A stretch of 36,933 nucleotides of DNA from the NCBI GenBank assembly GCA_022841745.1, contig JALHQW010000072.1, positions 1 to 36,933 of the forward strand, written 5' to 3'. Within the stretch, counting starts at the first letter, position 1, and each line of letters begins with the position of its first letter. This stretch comes from Saprospiraceae bacterium (lineage in GTDB: Bacteria > Bacteroidota > Bacteroidia > Chitinophagales > Saprospiraceae). Under the pieces are notes generated by a model. The model had not been told where the DNA came from and made no database searches. It worked only from the letters and a program-made list of their open reading frames with translations. This document shows positions 12,379-29,728 of this stretch, in pieces. The position numbers were made by a program, and so were the translations under genes.

Positions 12379-13149
12379 ATGCTTTCAGGAAAAAACATTG
12401 TCATCGTCGGCGGCACATCGGGCATGGGGCTGTCCGCTGCCCAAGCCTTTCAAAGGCAAGGGGCGAAGGTGGTGGCGCTTGGCATTGGCAAAGAAACTTC
12501 TATCCGAGCCATTGAAGTGCTCGGCCGCAATGCGCACGTGCTCACAGGTGATGCCACAGAGGAAGGCCAAACCGAGTCCGCCATCGAAAAATGCCTCGAA
12601 AGATTTGGCCCCCTTCACGGCCTCTACCATGTGGCCGGTGGCAGCGGTCGGCGCTTCGGCGATGGCCCCCTCCACGACCTAACGCTCGAAGGTTGGGAAT
12701 ATACCCTTCAACTGAACCTAACCTCCGTCATGCTTTCAAACAGGGCTGCCGTGCGGCAATTTTTGCAACAAAACAGCGGCGGCGCCTTGCTCAACATGGG
12801 ATCGGCCTTGGCTTTTTCGCCCGCCCCGCAATTTTTTTCCACCCATGCCTATACTGCCGCTAAAGCTGCCATAGAAGGCTTCACCAAAAGCGTTGCCGCC
12901 TATTATGCGCCGCAAAACATCCGGGCCAACGTCATAGCCCCCGGTCTGACCGATACGCCCATGGCCCAACGTGCCGTGCAGAACGACGACATCATGCAGT
13001 ACGTGCGCCACCGCCAACCTCTCGACGGGGGGCGGGCTGGCTCTCCGCATGACTTGGACGGGCTTGCTTCTTTATTGCTCTCCGATGCTGCCAATTTCAT
13101 CACCGGGCAGGTGGTGGCAGTGGATGGTGGGTGGAAATTGGGAAATTGA
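12379..13149 (+). CDS. SDR-family NAD(P)-dependent oxidoreductase
   Basis: Short-chain dehydrogenase/reductase of 256 residues, the usual classical-SDR size. The nucleotide-binding glycine motif is VGGTSGMG (10-17). The catalytic set is Asn113 (QLNLTS), Ser142 (MGSALAFS), Tyr158 and Lys162 (YTAAK). The NNAG motif is replaced by HVAGGSG (84-90), which occurs in some divergent members. The tail (ANVIAPGLTDTPM, then ITGQVVAVDGGW) is typical of FabG-like enzymes. The substrate is unknown. The last codons (GGA AAT TGA) lie within a perfect 25-bp inverted repeat shared with the convergent neighbour. Confidence 0.92.
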   Translation: MLSGKNIVIVGGTSGMGLSAAQAFQRQGAKVVALGIGKETSIRAIEVLGRNAHVLTGDATEEGQTESAIEKCLERFGPLHGLYHVAGGSGRRFGDGPLHDLTLEGWEYTLQLNLTSVMLSNRAAVRQFLQQNSGGALLNMGSALAFSPAPQFFSTHAYTAAKAAIEGFTKSVAAYYAPQNIRANVIAPGLTDTPMAQRAVQNDDIMQYVRHRQPLDGGRAGSPHDLDGLASLLLSDAANFITGQVVAVDGGWKLGN

Positions 13150-13199
13150 GAAAGATAGGAAATTGGACACCGTTCCAATTTCCTATCTTTCTCAATTTC
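13142..13199. terminator. Perfect 25-bp inverted repeat between convergent genes
   Basis: The arm 13142-13166 (GAAATTGAGAAAGATAGG and on) is exactly complementary to 13175-13199 with the 8-nt loop ACACCGTT. The SDR stop codon lies inside the left arm, and the hydrolase stop on the minus strand begins at base 13202, adjoining the right arm. It can act as a bidirectional terminator. It is built from GGAAATTG-like units that match the final codons of both genes. Confidence 0.9.
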
Positions 13200-14039
13200 T
13201 CAATTTCCGAACTTCTTCCTAAGGAACTCCACCGCCAACTTGTTCGCCGCTTGGGCTGCGGCGTCGTTGTATCGGGGGCTGGTCGGGTTGGCGAAGGCAT
13301 GGTCGGCCTCGAACCAATGGTTCTCTACCTTTTTGCCAGTGGCCTTGGCCAATGCCTCAAATTTACCAATAGCTTCTTGGTTGATCCATTTATCCTGGTC
13401 GGCGAAAATGCCGAGCACGTCGCATTGCAACGGGGCAAGTTCGTCCGCTTTTTCCACGGGCATGCCGTAATACATCACACAACCGACGCCCCGCTCGGCA
13501 GCCAATATGCTGCTCCGCAACGACCAGCCGCCACCGAAGCACCAGCCGATAGTGGCTACCTCGCCATCTTTGCCTGCAAAAGCCAAAGCCGCCTTTACGA
13601 TGGCCTCACGGCGTTCTTGGGACACGCTACCCATCAGTTTGCCAGCCTCGTCAGGGTTAGCGGTCATCTTGCCGTCGTAGAGGTCGAGGGCCAAAACGGT
13701 CACGTTGCCAAGTTCATCGGCAAGGCGGTCTGCCTCCTGCTTGATTTGGTCGTTCAGGCCCCACCATTCGTGAATCACGAAAAGGTACTTAGTGGTACGG
13801 GGATTAGCTACCACAGCGTAGGCCTTGGTCATGCCACCGTCAGCGGTACGAAGGTCAATCATCTTGCCACGACCTTGATAATCAATGACTTGCGGCGCTT
13901 CGTGTGCCTTGATGAAATTGGCGTCTGCGGTGAACTTGGACATGGCATCACCGCCTTGTTCAGTGATAGCGTCGTTGGTGCAGTTGCTGAACGCAAACAG
14001 TGCAAGCATTGCGAAGCAGAAAAGGAAACTGTTTTTCAT
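13200..14039 (-). CDS. Dienelactone hydrolase family lipoprotein
   Basis: Alpha/beta hydrolase of 279 residues. The likely catalytic residues of the family are visible: Cys167 in the nucleophile elbow IGWCFGGGW, an Asp in IFADQDK (214 or 216) and His247 in EADHAFANP, plus the Glu of IHEWWG (91) that activates the Cys in dienelactone hydrolases. The N-terminus MKNSFLFCFAMLALFAFSNC ends in a Cys at 20 that could be lipidated, so the enzyme is probably periplasmic or anchored. The start at 14039 is chosen over an in-frame 14066 because it begins the signal peptide. Both ends of the gene touch repeat arrays. It likely hydrolyses an ester or lactone; the true substrate is unknown. Confidence 0.9.
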   Translation of the reverse strand: MKNSFLFCFAMLALFAFSNCTNDAITEQGGDAMSKFTADANFIKAHEAPQVIDYQGRGKMIDLRTADGGMTKAYAVVANPRTTKYLFVIHEWWGLNDQIKQEADRLADELGNVTVLALDLYDGKMTANPDEAGKLMGSVSQERREAIVKAALAFAGKDGEVATIGWCFGGGWSLRSSILAAERGVGCVMYYGMPVEKADELAPLQCDVLGIFADQDKWINQEAIGKFEALAKATGKKVENHWFEADHAFANPTSPRYNDAAAQAANKLAVEFLRKKFGN

Positions 14040-14098
14040 GATTGTTTGATTGTTGAATTGTTTCATTGTTTCATGGCTTCATGGCTTCATTGTCGGAG
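14040..14098 (-). repeat. ATGAAACA-type array in the leader of the hydrolase gene
   Basis: In the hydrolase direction the leader consists of ATGAAGCC, ATGAAGCC, ATGAAACA, ATGAAACA-like units ending in AACAATC just before the start codon. The same units, in mirror orientation, precede guaD about 130 bp away. The 8-bp period places upstream ATGs in all three frames. Confidence 0.8.
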
Positions 14099-14230
14099 TG
14101 TTGCATTGTTTAAAAACAACGGATGCAATGCGAAGAAATCAACATATTTGCCCAAAACTAAGGCAATAGTTCAAAACGCCGCATTTTTGACTTGAAACCG
14201 CTAAACCATGAACGATTAAATCAATGTAGC

Positions 14231-14294
14231 GATGAACAATGAAACAATGAAGCCATGAAACAATGAAACAATGAAACAGTGTAGCCATGAAACA
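14231..14294 (+). repeat. ATGAAACA-type array running into the guaD start codon
   Basis: Units ATGAAACA and ATGAAGCC are repeated about seven times at 8-bp spacing (one 16-bp unit reads ATGAAACAGTGTAGCC), and the guaD start itself (ATGAAACAG) is the last unit. The spacer between this array and the one at 14040 holds the divergent promoters, which I could not resolve. Confidence 0.8.
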
Positions 14295-16767: not shown

Positions 16768-16874
16768 TTTGGCAAAGTTTGGCGCAAAGTAAATCGAAAA
16801 ATAGAAACAAATATTTTCAAAAATGTACAATCTTTTGGTTTGATTCAATTACTTTTAGGCCGATATTCTTCAAT

Positions 16875-17013
16875 GGTTCTGGTGTTTTCGGGTTTTCGGG
16901 TTCTGGGGTTTTCGGGTTTTCGGGTTCTGAGGTTATCGGGCGCAGTCCCCGAAAACCCGAAAACCCCAGAACCCGAAAACCCCAGAACCCGAAAACTCCA
17001 GAACTCCAGCACC
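16875..17013. repeat. Large inverted repeat of CGGGTTTT-type units
   Basis: Units TTTTCGGG and TTCTGGGG fill 16875-16940, and their complements CCCGAAAA and CCCCAGAA fill 16948-17013. Within this, 27 bp at 16898-16924 match 16948-16974 perfectly as an inverted repeat. The structure lies between divergent genes; its right edge is about 30 bp before the DUF1761 start, so it would be in that gene's leader. Confidence 0.9.
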
Positions 17014-17043
17014 ATCCATCTTTTCACCAACTTTATCAAAATT

Positions 17044-20605: not shown

Positions 20606-20608
<3 letters not shown>

Positions 20609-20680
20609 GGTATGAGGTATGAGGTATGTAGGTATGGGAGCCAACGCTATCATACCTACATACCTCATACCTCCATACCT
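20606..20680 (+). terminator. GGTATGA array forming a perfect 23-bp hairpin after guaB
   Basis: From the guaB stop codon the sequence reads TGAGGTATGAGGTATGAGG and so on. The arm 20614-20636 is exactly complementary to 20651-20673, with a 14-nt loop. The unit is the same as in the array after gyrB. No T run follows. It could end guaB transcription or separate it from the glycosyltransferase gene. Confidence 0.85.
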
Positions 20681-24371: not shown

Positions 24372-24458
24372 GGTCATGGCCGTAGGCCACCTCTGCATCA
24401 CGTTTTGTCATTCCCGAAGGGAACCTACGTGACTCAGAGGTGGCCTACGGCCATGACC
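24372..24458. repeat. Palindromic REP/MITE-like element, 24-bp perfect arms
   Basis: GGTCATGGCCGTAGGCCACC and four more bases (24372-24395) are exactly complementary to 24435-24458. The 39-nt centre contains further pairing (TCACGT with ACGTGA) and an inner TTCCCGAAGGGAA hairpin. The core 24405-24424 is nearly the reverse complement of 1711-1729, so the central part seems to be dispersed. Confidence 0.8.
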
Positions 24459-26402: not shown

Positions 26403-28292
26403 TCACCCCTCCCTCTCCAGCCCCCGGATCCTTGGCCGCTTCCCAATGATGGCCAACCGTTCCCGCAGGAAAAAAGCTTCGTTGGCTTCCAATGCCGAGA
26501 AGTATTGCATGCCGCCGCCAGCCGCCCAAAGCGACATGCAGAGCAAGAAAAGGAACATCCCCGTGAAGGTGAACCCGATATAATGGAAGGCCGAGTTGCT
26601 TGCTGGGCTTAAATCGAAATTGATGCTGACGATATTGAGCAAGTGCCCGACGAGGCCAGTATCGAGCAGGAGGGAGGCCATGGTGGCGCAAAGGAGGAGC
26701 ATGGAGAAGACGCCCATCATTTGTCCGAAGTTGTTGGACAGCAGGCTGCCCATGCGCACAAGGCCCGACCAAAGCCCTTTGCCTTCGTAAACCATCAACT
26801 GCGTCCAAAGCAGGAGCAAGGGGAACAAAGGTATAAGGAGCAGTAGCAGAAATCCACCCGGCAACAAGAATAGCAGGCAGAAAACCAAAGCAGCGACAAT
26901 GGTCTTGAGCAAGGCGTAAAGCAGGCTACCGATATTTGGTGCGGGGGCTTCTATTTCACTTTCATCTTCCCCGTCGGGCGAGTGGTAGCGCCACCGGGCG
27001 AGCAGGTACTGGGTGGTAAAGATGGCAATGCCAATGGCCAATACGGCGAACAAGAACAACCACCTATTGCCCTCACCTTCAAATAAAACAGGAACGGTGG
27101 AAAAAGCGCCAAAAACTCCCGGTTGAAATTCAAACAATTCACCCGGGGGCACATCCGCCAGCAGGAAAGCCCCACCGCAATAAATGGTGCTTCCAACGAG
27201 GGAGGCCAAGGCCAATGGCCCAATGTTTTTCCGAAGGAAAGTAAAGGCATCGGTGAAGAGGCTGCCAGCGGTTTTAACTTGCGTAAAGTCCACCCGGCGC
27301 TCCAAATCAGGTGTCAATCGGATGTCTTCCTCAATGTTGAAATGACCTTTGCGGGCTTTCCACCAAGGGAGCAATGCAAAATAGAACAACATGAACCCAA
27401 AACAGGCAGTGATGAAGATGGCCCGCAGCCAATCGGGCGCCTCGGTGTGGCGGGTGAGGTAACTCTCCACAAAGCCCGCAAAAATGAACAGCGGCACCAC
27501 ACCCACCATCAGGCTCATGCCTCGCCGGGCGGCCAACTGGAACGACCGCTCACGGGAAAGGGTGCCGGGGAAGGCCAGCCCACGCCCCAATGTCAAGCCC
27601 GCTCCGCCAGCCACTACGATGCTCGAAATCTCCACTGCCCCGTGCATCCAGATAGTGAGGAATGACTCCTGGAACAGCCCTTTTTCAACGAAAAAATACT
27701 GGAAGGCACCAATCATAATGCCATTAAATATCAATGCCCCAATGGTGCCCACGCCAAAGAACAGGCCAAGCACAAAGGTGATGAAGGCCACGAGTATATT
27801 GTTCAAAGTGATGCCGAGGAACATGTTGAACGCCCCGGCCTCTTTATAAACAGCCAAGGGGTCGCCGGATTTAATGTTTTCCTCGGTCATGTCCACATAG
27901 CGGTCGCCCATGATGCTGCGCACGAATTCTGGCTCAGCCCAACTGGACAACATGCCGATGGCCATGCACAGCGAAAAAATGCACAGCGAAAGACGAAGTT
28001 CGTTCCTTGATTCATGGATGAGCCTTGGCAAGTCCTCCAACCAGAAAGCCACAAAAGCACTGCGTCTCGATTTTTTGGTCTTGTAAATATTGAAGAAAAT
28101 CCGCTGTGCCAGCCCATTGAGATAAACCCGAACGGAGCGGTTCGGATAGAAAGTGCGGGCAAAGGAAAGGTCGTCCGTCACATGGACGAAGAGTTCGCTT
28201 AGCTTCTCGGGGTCGCTCACCTTGCCTTCCAGCAGTTGCTCGAATTCCCGCCACTTCTGCTGGTTTTGTTCTATGAAGGTGGTTTCACGCAT
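26403..28292 (-). CDS. SpoIIM-domain membrane protein with extended C-terminus
   Basis: Protein of 629 residues. The first ~320 residues match the SpoIIM/stage II sporulation protein M-like family common in non-sporulating Bacteroidota: RETTFIEQNQQKWREFEQLL, FYPNRSVRVYLNGLAQRIFFNIY, then helices with FNMFLGITLNNILVAFITF and TIWMHGAVEISSIVVAGGAGL. The usual family member ends around 330 residues; here about 300 more residues follow, starting FNIEEDIRLTPDLERRVDF, with further membrane helices including a very Leu-rich block (LLFLLPGGFLLLLLIPLFPLLLL). This looks like fusion with a second membrane protein. Its role is unknown; relatives lie near RDD and DUF4129 genes, none of which is here. The 5' leader is a long GTGAGAG microsatellite. 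Confidence 0.85.
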   Translation of the reverse strand: MRETTFIEQNQQKWREFEQLLEGKVSDPEKLSELFVHVTDDLSFARTFYPNRSVRVYLNGLAQRIFFNIYKTKKSRRSAFVAFWLEDLPRLIHESRNELRLSLCIFSLCMAIGMLSSWAEPEFVRSIMGDRYVDMTEENIKSGDPLAVYKEAGAFNMFLGITLNNILVAFITFVLGLFFGVGTIGALIFNGIMIGAFQYFFVEKGLFQESFLTIWMHGAVEISSIVVAGGAGLTLGRGLAFPGTLSRERSFQLAARRGMSLMVGVVPLFIFAGFVESYLTRHTEAPDWLRAIFITACFGFMLFYFALLPWWKARKGHFNIEEDIRLTPDLERRVDFTQVKTAGSLFTDAFTFLRKNIGPLALASLVGSTIYCGGAFLLADVPPGELFEFQPGVFGAFSTVPVLFEGEGNRWLFLFAVLAIGIAIFTTQYLLARWRYHSPDGEDESEIEAPAPNIGSLLYALLKTIVAALVFCLLFLLPGGFLLLLLIPLFPLLLLWTQLMVYEGKGLWSGLVRMGSLLSNNFGQMMGVFSMLLLCATMASLLLDTGLVGHLLNIVSINFDLSPASNSAFHYIGFTFTGMFLFLLCMSLWAAGGGMQYFSALEANEAFFLRERLAIIGKRPRIRGLEREG

Positions 28293-28295
28293 GGT

Positions 28296-28487
28296 TAAGA
28301 GTTGTGAGAGGGTGAGAGAGTGAGAGTTGTGAGAGAGTGAGAGAGTGAGAGTTGTGAGAGAGTGAGAGAGTGAGAGTTGTGAGAGAGTGAGAGTTGTGAG
28401 AGAGTGAGAGAGTGAGAGTTGTGAGAGAGTGAGAGTTGTGAGAGAGTGAGAGTTGTGAGAGAGTGAGAGTTGTGAGAGAGTGAGAGG
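28296..28487. repeat. GTGAGAGAG microsatellite
   Basis: About 190 bp made almost wholly of a 17-bp unit (TTGTGAGAGAGTGAGAG) and a 25-bp variant with an extra AGTGAGAG. It begins next to the SpoIIM-domain start codon and ends at the stop codon of the four-helix-bundle gene. The complementary CTCTCACC units lie on the other side of that gene at 28868-28899. An open frame through the array encodes only Ser-Leu-His-Asn repeats and is not a gene. Confidence 0.95.
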
Positions 28488-28488
28488 G

Positions 28489-28848
28489 TCATGGGGCCAA
28501 TGAGGATTTGATTTTGGCTGTCACTTTTAGTATTTCAAGTGCTTCATTGGACAGCCAAGCTAATTCGTTTTTTTCGCCGTATCCTATTCCATCAAAAATA
28601 TCCAACCAGTAAACACATTCGTCTGCCTCTTCAACCACGATGCATATCTTGGAATATTTCTCATTTTTAGAACGACCACGACAAAATGCCCTGAAGTTTG
28701 CCCCAACTGAGGTAGCGGCTTTGCCAAGTTGGAACGATGTTATTTTCGTCCCAGTATTGTAAGGAACAGTTTCCAAAAACTTTAAGGTTCTGACTGCAAA
28801 GTTCCGAGTTCTCTTTCTAAAATTCTCATTGAATTCTTCGTTCGTCAT
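28489..28848 (-). CDS. Four-helix-bundle protein (23S rRNA intervening-sequence family)
   Basis: Protein of 119 residues in the small four-helix-bundle family first noted inside 23S rRNA intervening sequences and related to the accessory Avd protein of diversity-generating retroelements. Seen here are the basic first helix (NFRKRTRNFAVRTLKFLETV), the conserved SVGANFRAFCRGRSKNEKYSKI turn and the EEADECVYWLDIF helix. Such proteins form pentamers with basic surfaces and are thought to bind nucleic acid; no enzymatic role is known. It is more AT-rich than the flanks and is enclosed by GTGAGAG and CTCTCAC arrays in opposite orientation, separating cdsA from the SpoIIM-domain gene. It is not in an rRNA operon and no reverse transcriptase is nearby. 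Confidence 0.9.
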   Translation of the reverse strand: MTNEEFNENFRKRTRNFAVRTLKFLETVPYNTGTKITSFQLGKAATSVGANFRAFCRGRSKNEKYSKICIVVEEADECVYWLDIFDGIGYGEKNELAWLSNEALEILKVTAKIKSSLAP

Positions 28849-28867
28849 AGCAGTTTATTTGTTTATT

Positions 28868-28899
28868 TCTCACCCTCTCACCCTCTCACTCCTCTCACC
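28868..28899. repeat. CTCTCACC array at the cdsA stop codon
   Basis: Four units, in cdsA direction reading GGTGAGAGGAGTGAGAGGG and on. The cdsA TGA stop (28895-28897) is inside the first GGTGAGAGG unit. It is the inverted partner of the longer array at 28296-28487. Confidence 0.85.
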
Positions 28900-29728
28900 T
28901 TATGTACAGCAAATACGCCGCCGCAAACGGTAGCAAGAAGATAAAGGCGTCGAACCTGTCCAACATACCGCCGTGGCCGGGGAGCAGGGTACCGGAGTCC
29001 TTGATGTTGATGCTTCGCTTGAGCATGGACTCAATGAGGTCGCCGATGCTTCCGAAAACAGCGACGATGGCAGAGAGGATCATCCAGTCTTGCAACCGGA
29101 GTTCGCCCGTTATAACGCAAAAAAGATAGCCTACCAGGAAGGTGACAGCCACACCGCCCAAGGTGCCTTCCCATGTTTTTTTTGGAGAAATGCGGGGCAG
29201 CAGGGGCGTCTTGCCAAACTTGGAACCAATGATGTAAGCGCCCGTGTCGTTCATCCAAGTGAGCAGCAACAGGCCAAAAATGGGCCAGACATTGAAGCCA
29301 TCTTCATTGAAGGCGATGAAATTGAGCAGTGAAAATGGTGCACCGATATACACCATGCCCAGCACCATAAAGGCGACGTTTTGGAACGGCTTTTCGGAGC
29401 CAGTAAACAGTTCGTAGATGAAGGCCATAAAAATCAGCGGGAAGAACAGCACCGAAGTGATGATGACAAACTGGTCGTTGCTGACGATGGCCATGTGCAT
29501 GACAGAGGCCAGCACAAAGGGCGAAAGCCCAAATATGACCCCAATGAAAATACGGATCCAATCACGCCTGGTGTCATGGTGGAGTACCAAGTTCAGGAAC
29601 TCCCAAAGGCAGAGCACGGTGATGATGGCAAATAACAGGATGAACGACATCTTGCCGATGAACAAGCCCGTGAGCATCACTACGACAAACAGGGCAGCGG
29701 TCATGGCCCTTCGAGTAAGTCCTTTCAT
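28895..29728 (-). CDS. cdsA: Phosphatidate cytidylyltransferase
   Basis: Integral membrane enzyme of 277 residues making CDP-diacylglycerol from CTP and phosphatidic acid. The C-terminal family signature is complete: SMLKRSINIKDSG, then the LPGHGG turn and MLDRFDAF. About seven hydrophobic helices precede it, and the conserved acidic site near SIGDLIESM is present. The length matches the bacterial family. The ATG at 29728 gives a short basic head (MKGLTRRAM) before the first helix. The stop codon lies inside a GTGAGAG-type array that leads to the inserted four-helix-bundle gene. Confidence 0.94.
   Translation of the reverse strand: MKGLTRRAMTAALFVVVMLTGLFIGKMSFILLFAIITVLCLWEFLNLVLHHDTRRDWIRIFIGVIFGLSPFVLASVMHMAIVSNDQFVIITSVLFFPLIFMAFIYELFTGSEKPFQNVAFMVLGMVYIGAPFSLLNFIAFNEDGFNVWPIFGLLLLTWMNDTGAYIIGSKFGKTPLLPRISPKKTWEGTLGGVAVTFLVGYLFCVITGELRLQDWMILSAIVAVFGSIGDLIESMLKRSINIKDSGTLLPGHGGMLDRFDAFIFLLPFAAAYLLYIR

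Follow-up and report, generated by a model that had tools for sequence, protein, structure and literature searches.

S23/IVP four-helix-bundle genes between inverted arrays of short words suggest a new kind of bacterial mobile element

A 600-bp block between cdsA and a SpoIIM-domain gene of a Saprospiraceae bacterium is probably a copy of a mobile element, formed of a gene for an S23/23S rRNA intervening-sequence protein (IVP) and two arms built from a word specific to the protein's subfamily, with the protein reading this word and bare hairpins representing non-autonomous copies. The block lies in a contig of 36,933 nt (JALHQW010000072.1, assembly GCA_022841745.1), and this whole stretch is referred to here as the window.

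Results

The IVP gene of the window encodes 119 amino acids on the minus strand (28489..28848), with an array of 22 GTGAGAG words downstream of it (28298..28486, plus strand) and an inverted array of three CTCTCAC copies, GTGAGAG on the minus strand, upstream (28868..28899). This confirms the initial annotation, which had described a four-helix-bundle gene between inverted GTGAGAG and CTCTCAC arrays. The host genes are both on the minus strand, with cdsA upstream (28895..29728; CTP_transf_1 family, PF01148, E 3.8e-61) and a gene with a SpoIIM domain in the Pfam scan downstream (26403..28292). Gene and arrays together occupy the whole gap from the cdsA stop to 5 nt before the ATG of the SpoIIM-domain gene: the TGA stop of cdsA is part of the outermost GTGAGAG word of the right array (28868-28899), the IVP stop codon lies 2 nt from the GTGAGAG array, and the array lies 5 nt from the SpoIIM-domain gene ATG. 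The element is therefore intergenic, and it lies outside any rRNA gene. The sequence GTGAGAGNGTGAGAG occurs 14 times in the window, in all 14 cases inside the two GTGAGAG arrays, and was absent from 100 dinucleotide shuffles. Between the arms the only ORF of at least 80 amino acids is the S23/IVP gene, in which Pfam detected no nuclease or polymerase domain, and the minimum free energy fold of 610 nt of the transcribed strand encloses this ORF by a 30-bp stem.

Assignment of the gene to the 23S rRNA intervening-sequence family, also proposed initially, was upheld by two profiles above their curated cut-offs, Pfam 23S_rRNA_IVP (PF05635; E 8e-11, 42.5 bits against a cut-off of 33.8) and TIGR02436 'four helix bundle protein' (E 1.3e-15, 57.6 bits against 24). 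An AlphaFold model built from an alignment of 53 sequences has four helices with a pLDDT of 96.3, and Foldseek returned as its best PDB match the S23-family protein 2RLD (TM about 0.8), followed by 2GSC, with weaker matches to the Avd structures 4DWL and 8UB7 (E 0.06-0.3). With the Avd profile, one relative among four scanned IVPs gave a match, which was below the cut-off.

We examined 14 genomes of the genus, designated by G-numbers, of which G000 (8.43 Mb) is that of the window. G000 has 13 S23/IVP family matches, and at all 12 testable genes the flanks match each other as inverted arrays of short words (12/12; the thirteenth gene, on C45, is at a contig end and was left out of this count), so that the other copies of the family in this genome also carry arrays. 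Each locus has one word, namely GTGAGAG, GAAGGATT, GCGGATT, AAAGTACAAAGG, GGCAGTTCGACAGT, GGTTTCAG, GCTGTTGG, GGTTTTCG, GAGGTATG, GGATACT, CGTGATT and GAAATTG, and this variation from locus to locus rules out a single genome-wide word.

Across the genus there were 136 family matches, up to 16 per genome, of which 122 were read (the 14 left unread being mostly fragments or weak) and 112 were testable, with 150 nt or more of sequence to each side; with 27 from other families or orders, 149 IVP places were read, 136 with enough flank. An inverted-arm score of at least 16, a threshold set at the 99% point of a null of cross-genome pairs, some of them with the same word, was reached by 92 of the 112 testable genus genes (14 genomes) compared with 3 of 262 G000 control genes, among which the IVP gene on C3 was left in and may be one of the three hits. 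Arrays around family genes thus extend well beyond the genome of the window, and 10 of 24 IVP genes from other families or orders also reached this score. Pairs and loci in these and all following counts are statistically non-independent. Nine of the 20 genus loci below 16 scored 13-15, and one of two low-scoring cases with a long ORF is an IVP gene running through its own 3' arm.

Some unusual loci were seen during this survey. At G005:C77 (L105:1433-1990) no stop codon separates the IVP gene from its 3' arm, and the gene continues in frame through the array, giving a 523-aa fusion, its linker partly encoded by the array, with a gene whose translation reads as aminotransferase-like, which speaks against a reverse-transcriptase fusion; a long ORF at G003:C40:5144 is similar. 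Four IVP genes with different words lie within 10 kb here (L105:1-9542 and L047; G005:C77:48189-57692), in what seems from reading to be a polysaccharide gene cluster.

Read inward, the arms contain more G than C at 98 of 102 loci, and the elements consequently have polarity. This is not absolute, since among 107 close pairs 18.7% also match in the opposite orientation, against 45% in the same orientation. C accounts for 8% of arm bases. In 61 of 75 pairs, the arms within a locus resemble each other more than do arms with the same word from different loci. Hints of a conserved motif (GGGG..GC) follow the word on the inner side, although it is variable. The median distance from the outer end of an array to a stop codon is 0 nt (90/112 fall within -15..30 nt), in agreement with the proposed location of the family's arrays after stop codons, and that to a start codon is 8.5 nt (49/66 in the same range).

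We compared the same sites in relatives, and differing states were observed. cdsA is present in 13 of the 14 genus genomes. Its junction with the SpoIIM-domain gene is loaded with the orthologous IVP gene and arrays in G000 and G011, holds bare hairpins in G001 (GTGAGAG), G008 (TGAGGGAT) and G040 (TGAGGATT), and has neither gene nor array in G004. In G012, cdsA is followed by another IVP gene, here with TGAGGGTT arrays, and in the remaining genomes by a different sequence. These states agree with the earlier suggestion of a unit inserted after the cdsA stop, and the relatives with a bare hairpin at this position that it called for do exist (G001, G008 and G040). The opposing case, the orthologue of the window gene without arrays, was not seen at the cdsA loci of these 13 genomes. 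Two further sites lie between genes that, from reading their translations, we take to be mscS and a universal stress gene, and hemB and hemL. The first is loaded with GAGGTATG in G000, bare with GAGGTATG in G011 and bare with another word in G006, and in the seven other loci shown mscS is followed by a different sequence. The second is loaded with GAAATTG in G000, where the terminal codons of HemB are made of the word, and bare with another word in G006; in five more distant loci hemB has another neighbour, two of them (G003 and G005) with word arrays after hemB. When the whole window was compared with stretches of G004, G001, G008, G040 and G011, matches were obtained for 7 of 23 window genes, gene order being too little conserved for this approach. 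No clear target-site duplication was found at the compared sites, and none is evident by eye at cdsA.

The word is coupled to the protein subfamily. For pairs from different genomes without a shared neighbouring ORF, the same word was found in 38 of 43 at ≥180 bits, 21 of 42 at 160-180, 10 of 35 at 140-160, 16 of 97 at 120-140 and 69 of 8004 below 120 bits. At ≥140 bits this amounts to 69 of 120 pairs, against a mean of 2.9 and a maximum of 10 in 2000 permutations. Such non-syntenic pairs share no ORF of at least 50 aa (E<=1e-6, >40% identity) in fetched flanks of up to 2.5 kb, a range beyond which longer synteny is possible; this comparison supersedes a first pair test on 98 genes. IVP pairs within one genome shared the word in only 12 of 489 cases. 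Two genes of the genus are closely related to the window gene: its counterpart at the same site in G011 (90% identity) and a G007 gene (62%) at a different site, where it lies, likewise with GTGAGAG arms, in the gap from a TAG stop to the following ATG.

We also scanned named genomes for the GGCAGT subfamily, taking the best 80 of 455 relatives, 76 of them testable. The pattern [CT]AGTNNN[CT]AG[TG], which was picked after viewing the arms, occurs inward on both arms at 58 of these 76 loci and at 2 of 128 other IVP loci serving as the control; reading outward, it occurs at 2 of the 76. At least three of the 76 (L207, L209 and L212) are apparently the same records as loci behind query A3. Records with the heptad are labelled Bacteroidota, Ignavibacteria, Scalindua and Desulfococcaceae, although many of the 76 are metagenome-assembled genomes and labels may be wrong; the sole Planctomycetes-labelled locus (L239) lacks it. 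By inverted-arm score alone 27 of the 76 reach 16 and 44 reach 14, and the cross-pair 99% point is as high as 23 because these loci share the word. The word thus differs between genes, yet it tracks the protein at unrelated sites and across phyla.

Word matches in the 14 genomes were commonest where the cognate gene was present, and cleanly so for three of five words. GTGAGAG matches numbered 67 in G000, 33 in G007 and 19 in G011, which have the cognate IVP gene, and 11, 8, 7, 1 and seven zeros elsewhere; GAGGTATG gave 105, 32, 31 and 15 with the gene against at most 10 without, and GGAGTAG 592 and 114 against 1 or 0. The other two were less clean, since genomes in which we found no cognate gene can also have many matches: GGCAGTTNGACAGT gave 55, 47, 16 and 12 with the gene and 31, 31, 8, 5 and zeros without, and GAGGGAT 510, 115, 38, 26 and 5 with it and 76, 71, 30 and fewer without. 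One-sided p values, given here as a set for the five words, were 0.0039, 0.0026, 0.0017, 0.011 and 0.054, and combined, 0 of 200000 permutations matched the observation. These counts are overlapping exact-pattern matches and not loci, they include the IVP elements' own arms, and their hairpin form was partly verified. One of the five words was a reversed control pattern that by accident is identical to the word of two IVP genes. In assigning cognates, the GAGGTATG gene of G040 is a fragment, and GGCAGT-cluster genes of G003, G007 and G009 with variant words were counted as lacking the GGCAGT word.

A census of 434 kb of G000 (two large contig stretches and the window) found 81 inverted repeats, 18 with periodic arms, of which 2 are IVP loci and 16 are bare. 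By raw scores, taken without a null, eight of the 16 match the arms of a G000 IVP gene at ≥15, and for another three the only match is to an IVP gene from a relative. GTGAGAG arrays were also seen at the ends of contigs C68, C113 and C136 of G000, and draft assemblies probably break there and undercount such arrays.

Within the window, a bare hairpin with the word GGAAATTG (13133..13208) resembles the arms of the IVP gene G000:C55:21596 (score 17), one with GAGGTAT (20606..20680) shares its word, by inspection, with G000:C36:28311, and one with GGTTTTCG (16873..17015) resembles the arms of G000:C21:38693 (score 39). The first two, at 13142 and 20614, had been suggested initially as possible empty versions of the same kind of element. 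They are indeed built in the same way and belong to the same class, but their words are GGAAATTG and GAGGTAT, and rather than bare copies of the window element they are relatives of the C55 and C36 gene elements; as each protein subfamily has its own word, they belong with other subfamilies. Inverted arrays of ATTGTTTC and GAAACAAT, 132 nt apart (14041..14294), have no IVP match between them, and no G000 IVP gene with their word was found (best score 10). Several copies of non-periodic palindromes, seemingly unrelated, were noted at 24372-24458 of the window and at G000:C2:53590 and 57887 (e.g. ACGTTTACTAAACTT on C2).

A relative was present in 38 plasmid records, and 15 of these, all cyanobacterial, were retrieved. 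Nine of the 15 loci have an arm score of at least 14, with words such as GGGAGTA, GGTGACA, TTTTAGC and GGGAACA. Three cyanobacterial IVP loci are inside cas operons, two at cas6|cas4 and one at cmr2|cmr3, and these elements may bear on the 18 IVP genes in cas loci given in an earlier report (PMC3936711). The sequences that flank the cas6|cas4 gap are 98.2% identical between Anabaena 90 and Dolichospermum UHCC 0315A on one side and 99.2% on the other; the gap itself holds an 849-bp block of arrays and IVP gene in the former and 273 bp of other palindromic sequence in the latter. As both near-identical plasmids carry something, this is an imperfect empty-site pair. By eye only, there is a possible 4-bp CTGA repeat at the Anabaena 90 insert. 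The Dolichospermum insert (L334:2415-2687) ends in GTAGGTTGGGTT and AACCCAACCTAC, and the gap may attract different hairpin elements. Five further plasmids, of 11 listed, have cas6|cas4: three with gaps of 5, 9 and 23 bp, Leptolyngbya with 66 bp and no array, and Pseudanabaena ABRG5-3 with a bare AATTACG array. The idea of phage cargo was set aside, as a tblastn search of the related gene L006 against 50,697 phage records gave no match.

Discussion

We propose that the element consists of an S23/IVP gene framed by two arrays, in inverted orientation, of a word of 7-9 bp, and that gene and arms would travel as one unit. The match between subfamily and word indicates that some component of the element reads the word. 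The protein is the simplest candidate, and most likely recognises tandem copies of its own word, be it in DNA or RNA. The solved S23/IVP relative Xcc0516 is a homopentamer (PMC4990558), and a pentameric protein could read tandem copies of the word through several subunits at once. Arms so poor in C would hardly self-pair and may stay free for the protein or the other arm. No movement enzyme is encoded in the element, meaning that host or other enzymes would have to act, and the protein together with host enzymes would promote the spread, growth and copying of hairpins of its own word, with bare same-word hairpins elsewhere as non-autonomous copies. What we infer here from sequence comparison is that the protein itself reads the word, that hairpins are mobilised in trans and that host enzymes take part. 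Elements would settle at gene ends, where they presumably do least harm, the word supplying or overlapping the stop codon.

Another explanation is that word hairpins are an independent class of repeat, into which the IVP gene inserts as a guest with the arms staying put. The rRNA intervening sequence in a 23S hairpin is a parallel, bare periodic hairpins outnumber loaded ones by 16 to 2 in 434 kb, and the mscS site is bare with GAGGTATG in G011 and loaded in G000. We nevertheless consider this unlikely: the same protein-word pair is present in records of different phyla, the cas6|cas4 contrast spans the whole block, arms included, and irregular details are common to both arms of a locus in 61 of 75 pairs, as expected if arm were copied from arm or if the copy were recent. 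Somewhat less probable still is that IVP is a host regulator of gene-end hairpins, acting on RNA stability, termination or processing and autoregulated via its own arms, with the repeats spreading by slippage and selection. Arrays at stop codons (90/112 within -15..30 nt), a transcript that folds with the gene inside a 30-bp stem, and the cutting of rRNA intervening-sequence stems by RNase III (PMC4990558) would suit such a role, but presence and absence and differing words at orthologous sites in close relatives do not, nor do up to 16 family matches per genome with the word shared in only 12 of 489 same-genome pairs. G000 does have many short tandem repeats and palindromes, but ordinary slippage repeats or plain terminators beside the gene by chance are ruled out by the 92 of 112 loci against 3 of 262 controls and are made highly improbable also by the protein-word correlation.

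For the mobile element that we favour, the closest known system depends on the criterion: in protein and anatomy it is the rRNA intervening sequence, in behaviour REP/RAYT, and in sequence style the heptanucleotide repeats. The rRNA intervening sequences of Leptospira and Coxiella with an S23p/IVP ORF hold the same protein family inside complementary stem-forming arms, that of Coxiella has tandem GACAGAT heptamers before the ORF, like the window arrays, and mobility has been proposed (all PMC4990558); rRNA insertions of CPR bacteria are a further place where IVP ORFs have been found (PMC11270868). In contrast, the elements described here are intergenic, reach 16 matches per genome, have a subfamily-specific word and are accompanied by gene-free hairpins. 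REP/RAYT comprises hairpin families, mostly downstream of genes, together with a cognate gene that is flanked by them and presumed to be responsible for their mobility (PMC3733652). RAYT is a tyrosine transposase, whereas the window gene encodes a four-helix bundle without a known catalytic domain, and our elements differ further in their arms of tandem short words and in having many word-protein pairs per genome. Avd of diversity-generating retroelements has a fold similar to that of the window protein; among five window ORFs scanned, neither of the two genes adjoining the window gene is a reverse transcriptase.

Heptanucleotide repeats go by the name STRR in cyanobacteria. Those of Xanthomonas (GGGAATC), Nostoc (GGGGAYT), Beggiatoaceae (TAACTGA) and Geobacter are, like ours, 7-bp tandem words in largely intergenic positions, with convergent inverted pairs also in Xanthomonas, and the available parts of these papers describe them without a named cognate protein (PMC4692102, PMC4679880, PMC2700814). 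One of them suggests that a repeat-binding protein, its identity not given there, might be the mobile element (PMC4679880). Hairpins in P6b of the Nostoc trnL intron have stems of 7-nt repeats and shifts of word class at one site, as here; unlike here, they are inside a group I intron, and the available part of the paper describes no associated protein gene (PMC4476775). In the accessible portions of the open-access literature, a scope outside which preprints and most subscription papers lie, we found no link of the S23/IVP family to such arrays outside rRNA.

Our results suggest that these repeat-armed genes represent a mobile element of a new kind, which may have given rise to some bacterial 7-letter repeats that have so far been described piecemeal and without explanation. 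More tentatively, and with the odds slightly against it, S23/IVP could be a large repertoire of word readers, in which every subfamily would recognise a single 7-8-nt word in tandem and cause hairpins of that word to arise and spread. Mobile elements of such a class would lack a transposase of their own and be common to Bacteroidota, Cyanobacteria, Ignavibacteria and others; such a view would account for many heptanucleotide repeats and for rRNA intervening sequences. A widespread family with solved structures but no known role thereby gains a candidate nucleic-acid partner that can be read beside each gene, and, if the protein does read the word, nature would offer many protein-word pairs from which to learn a recognition code.
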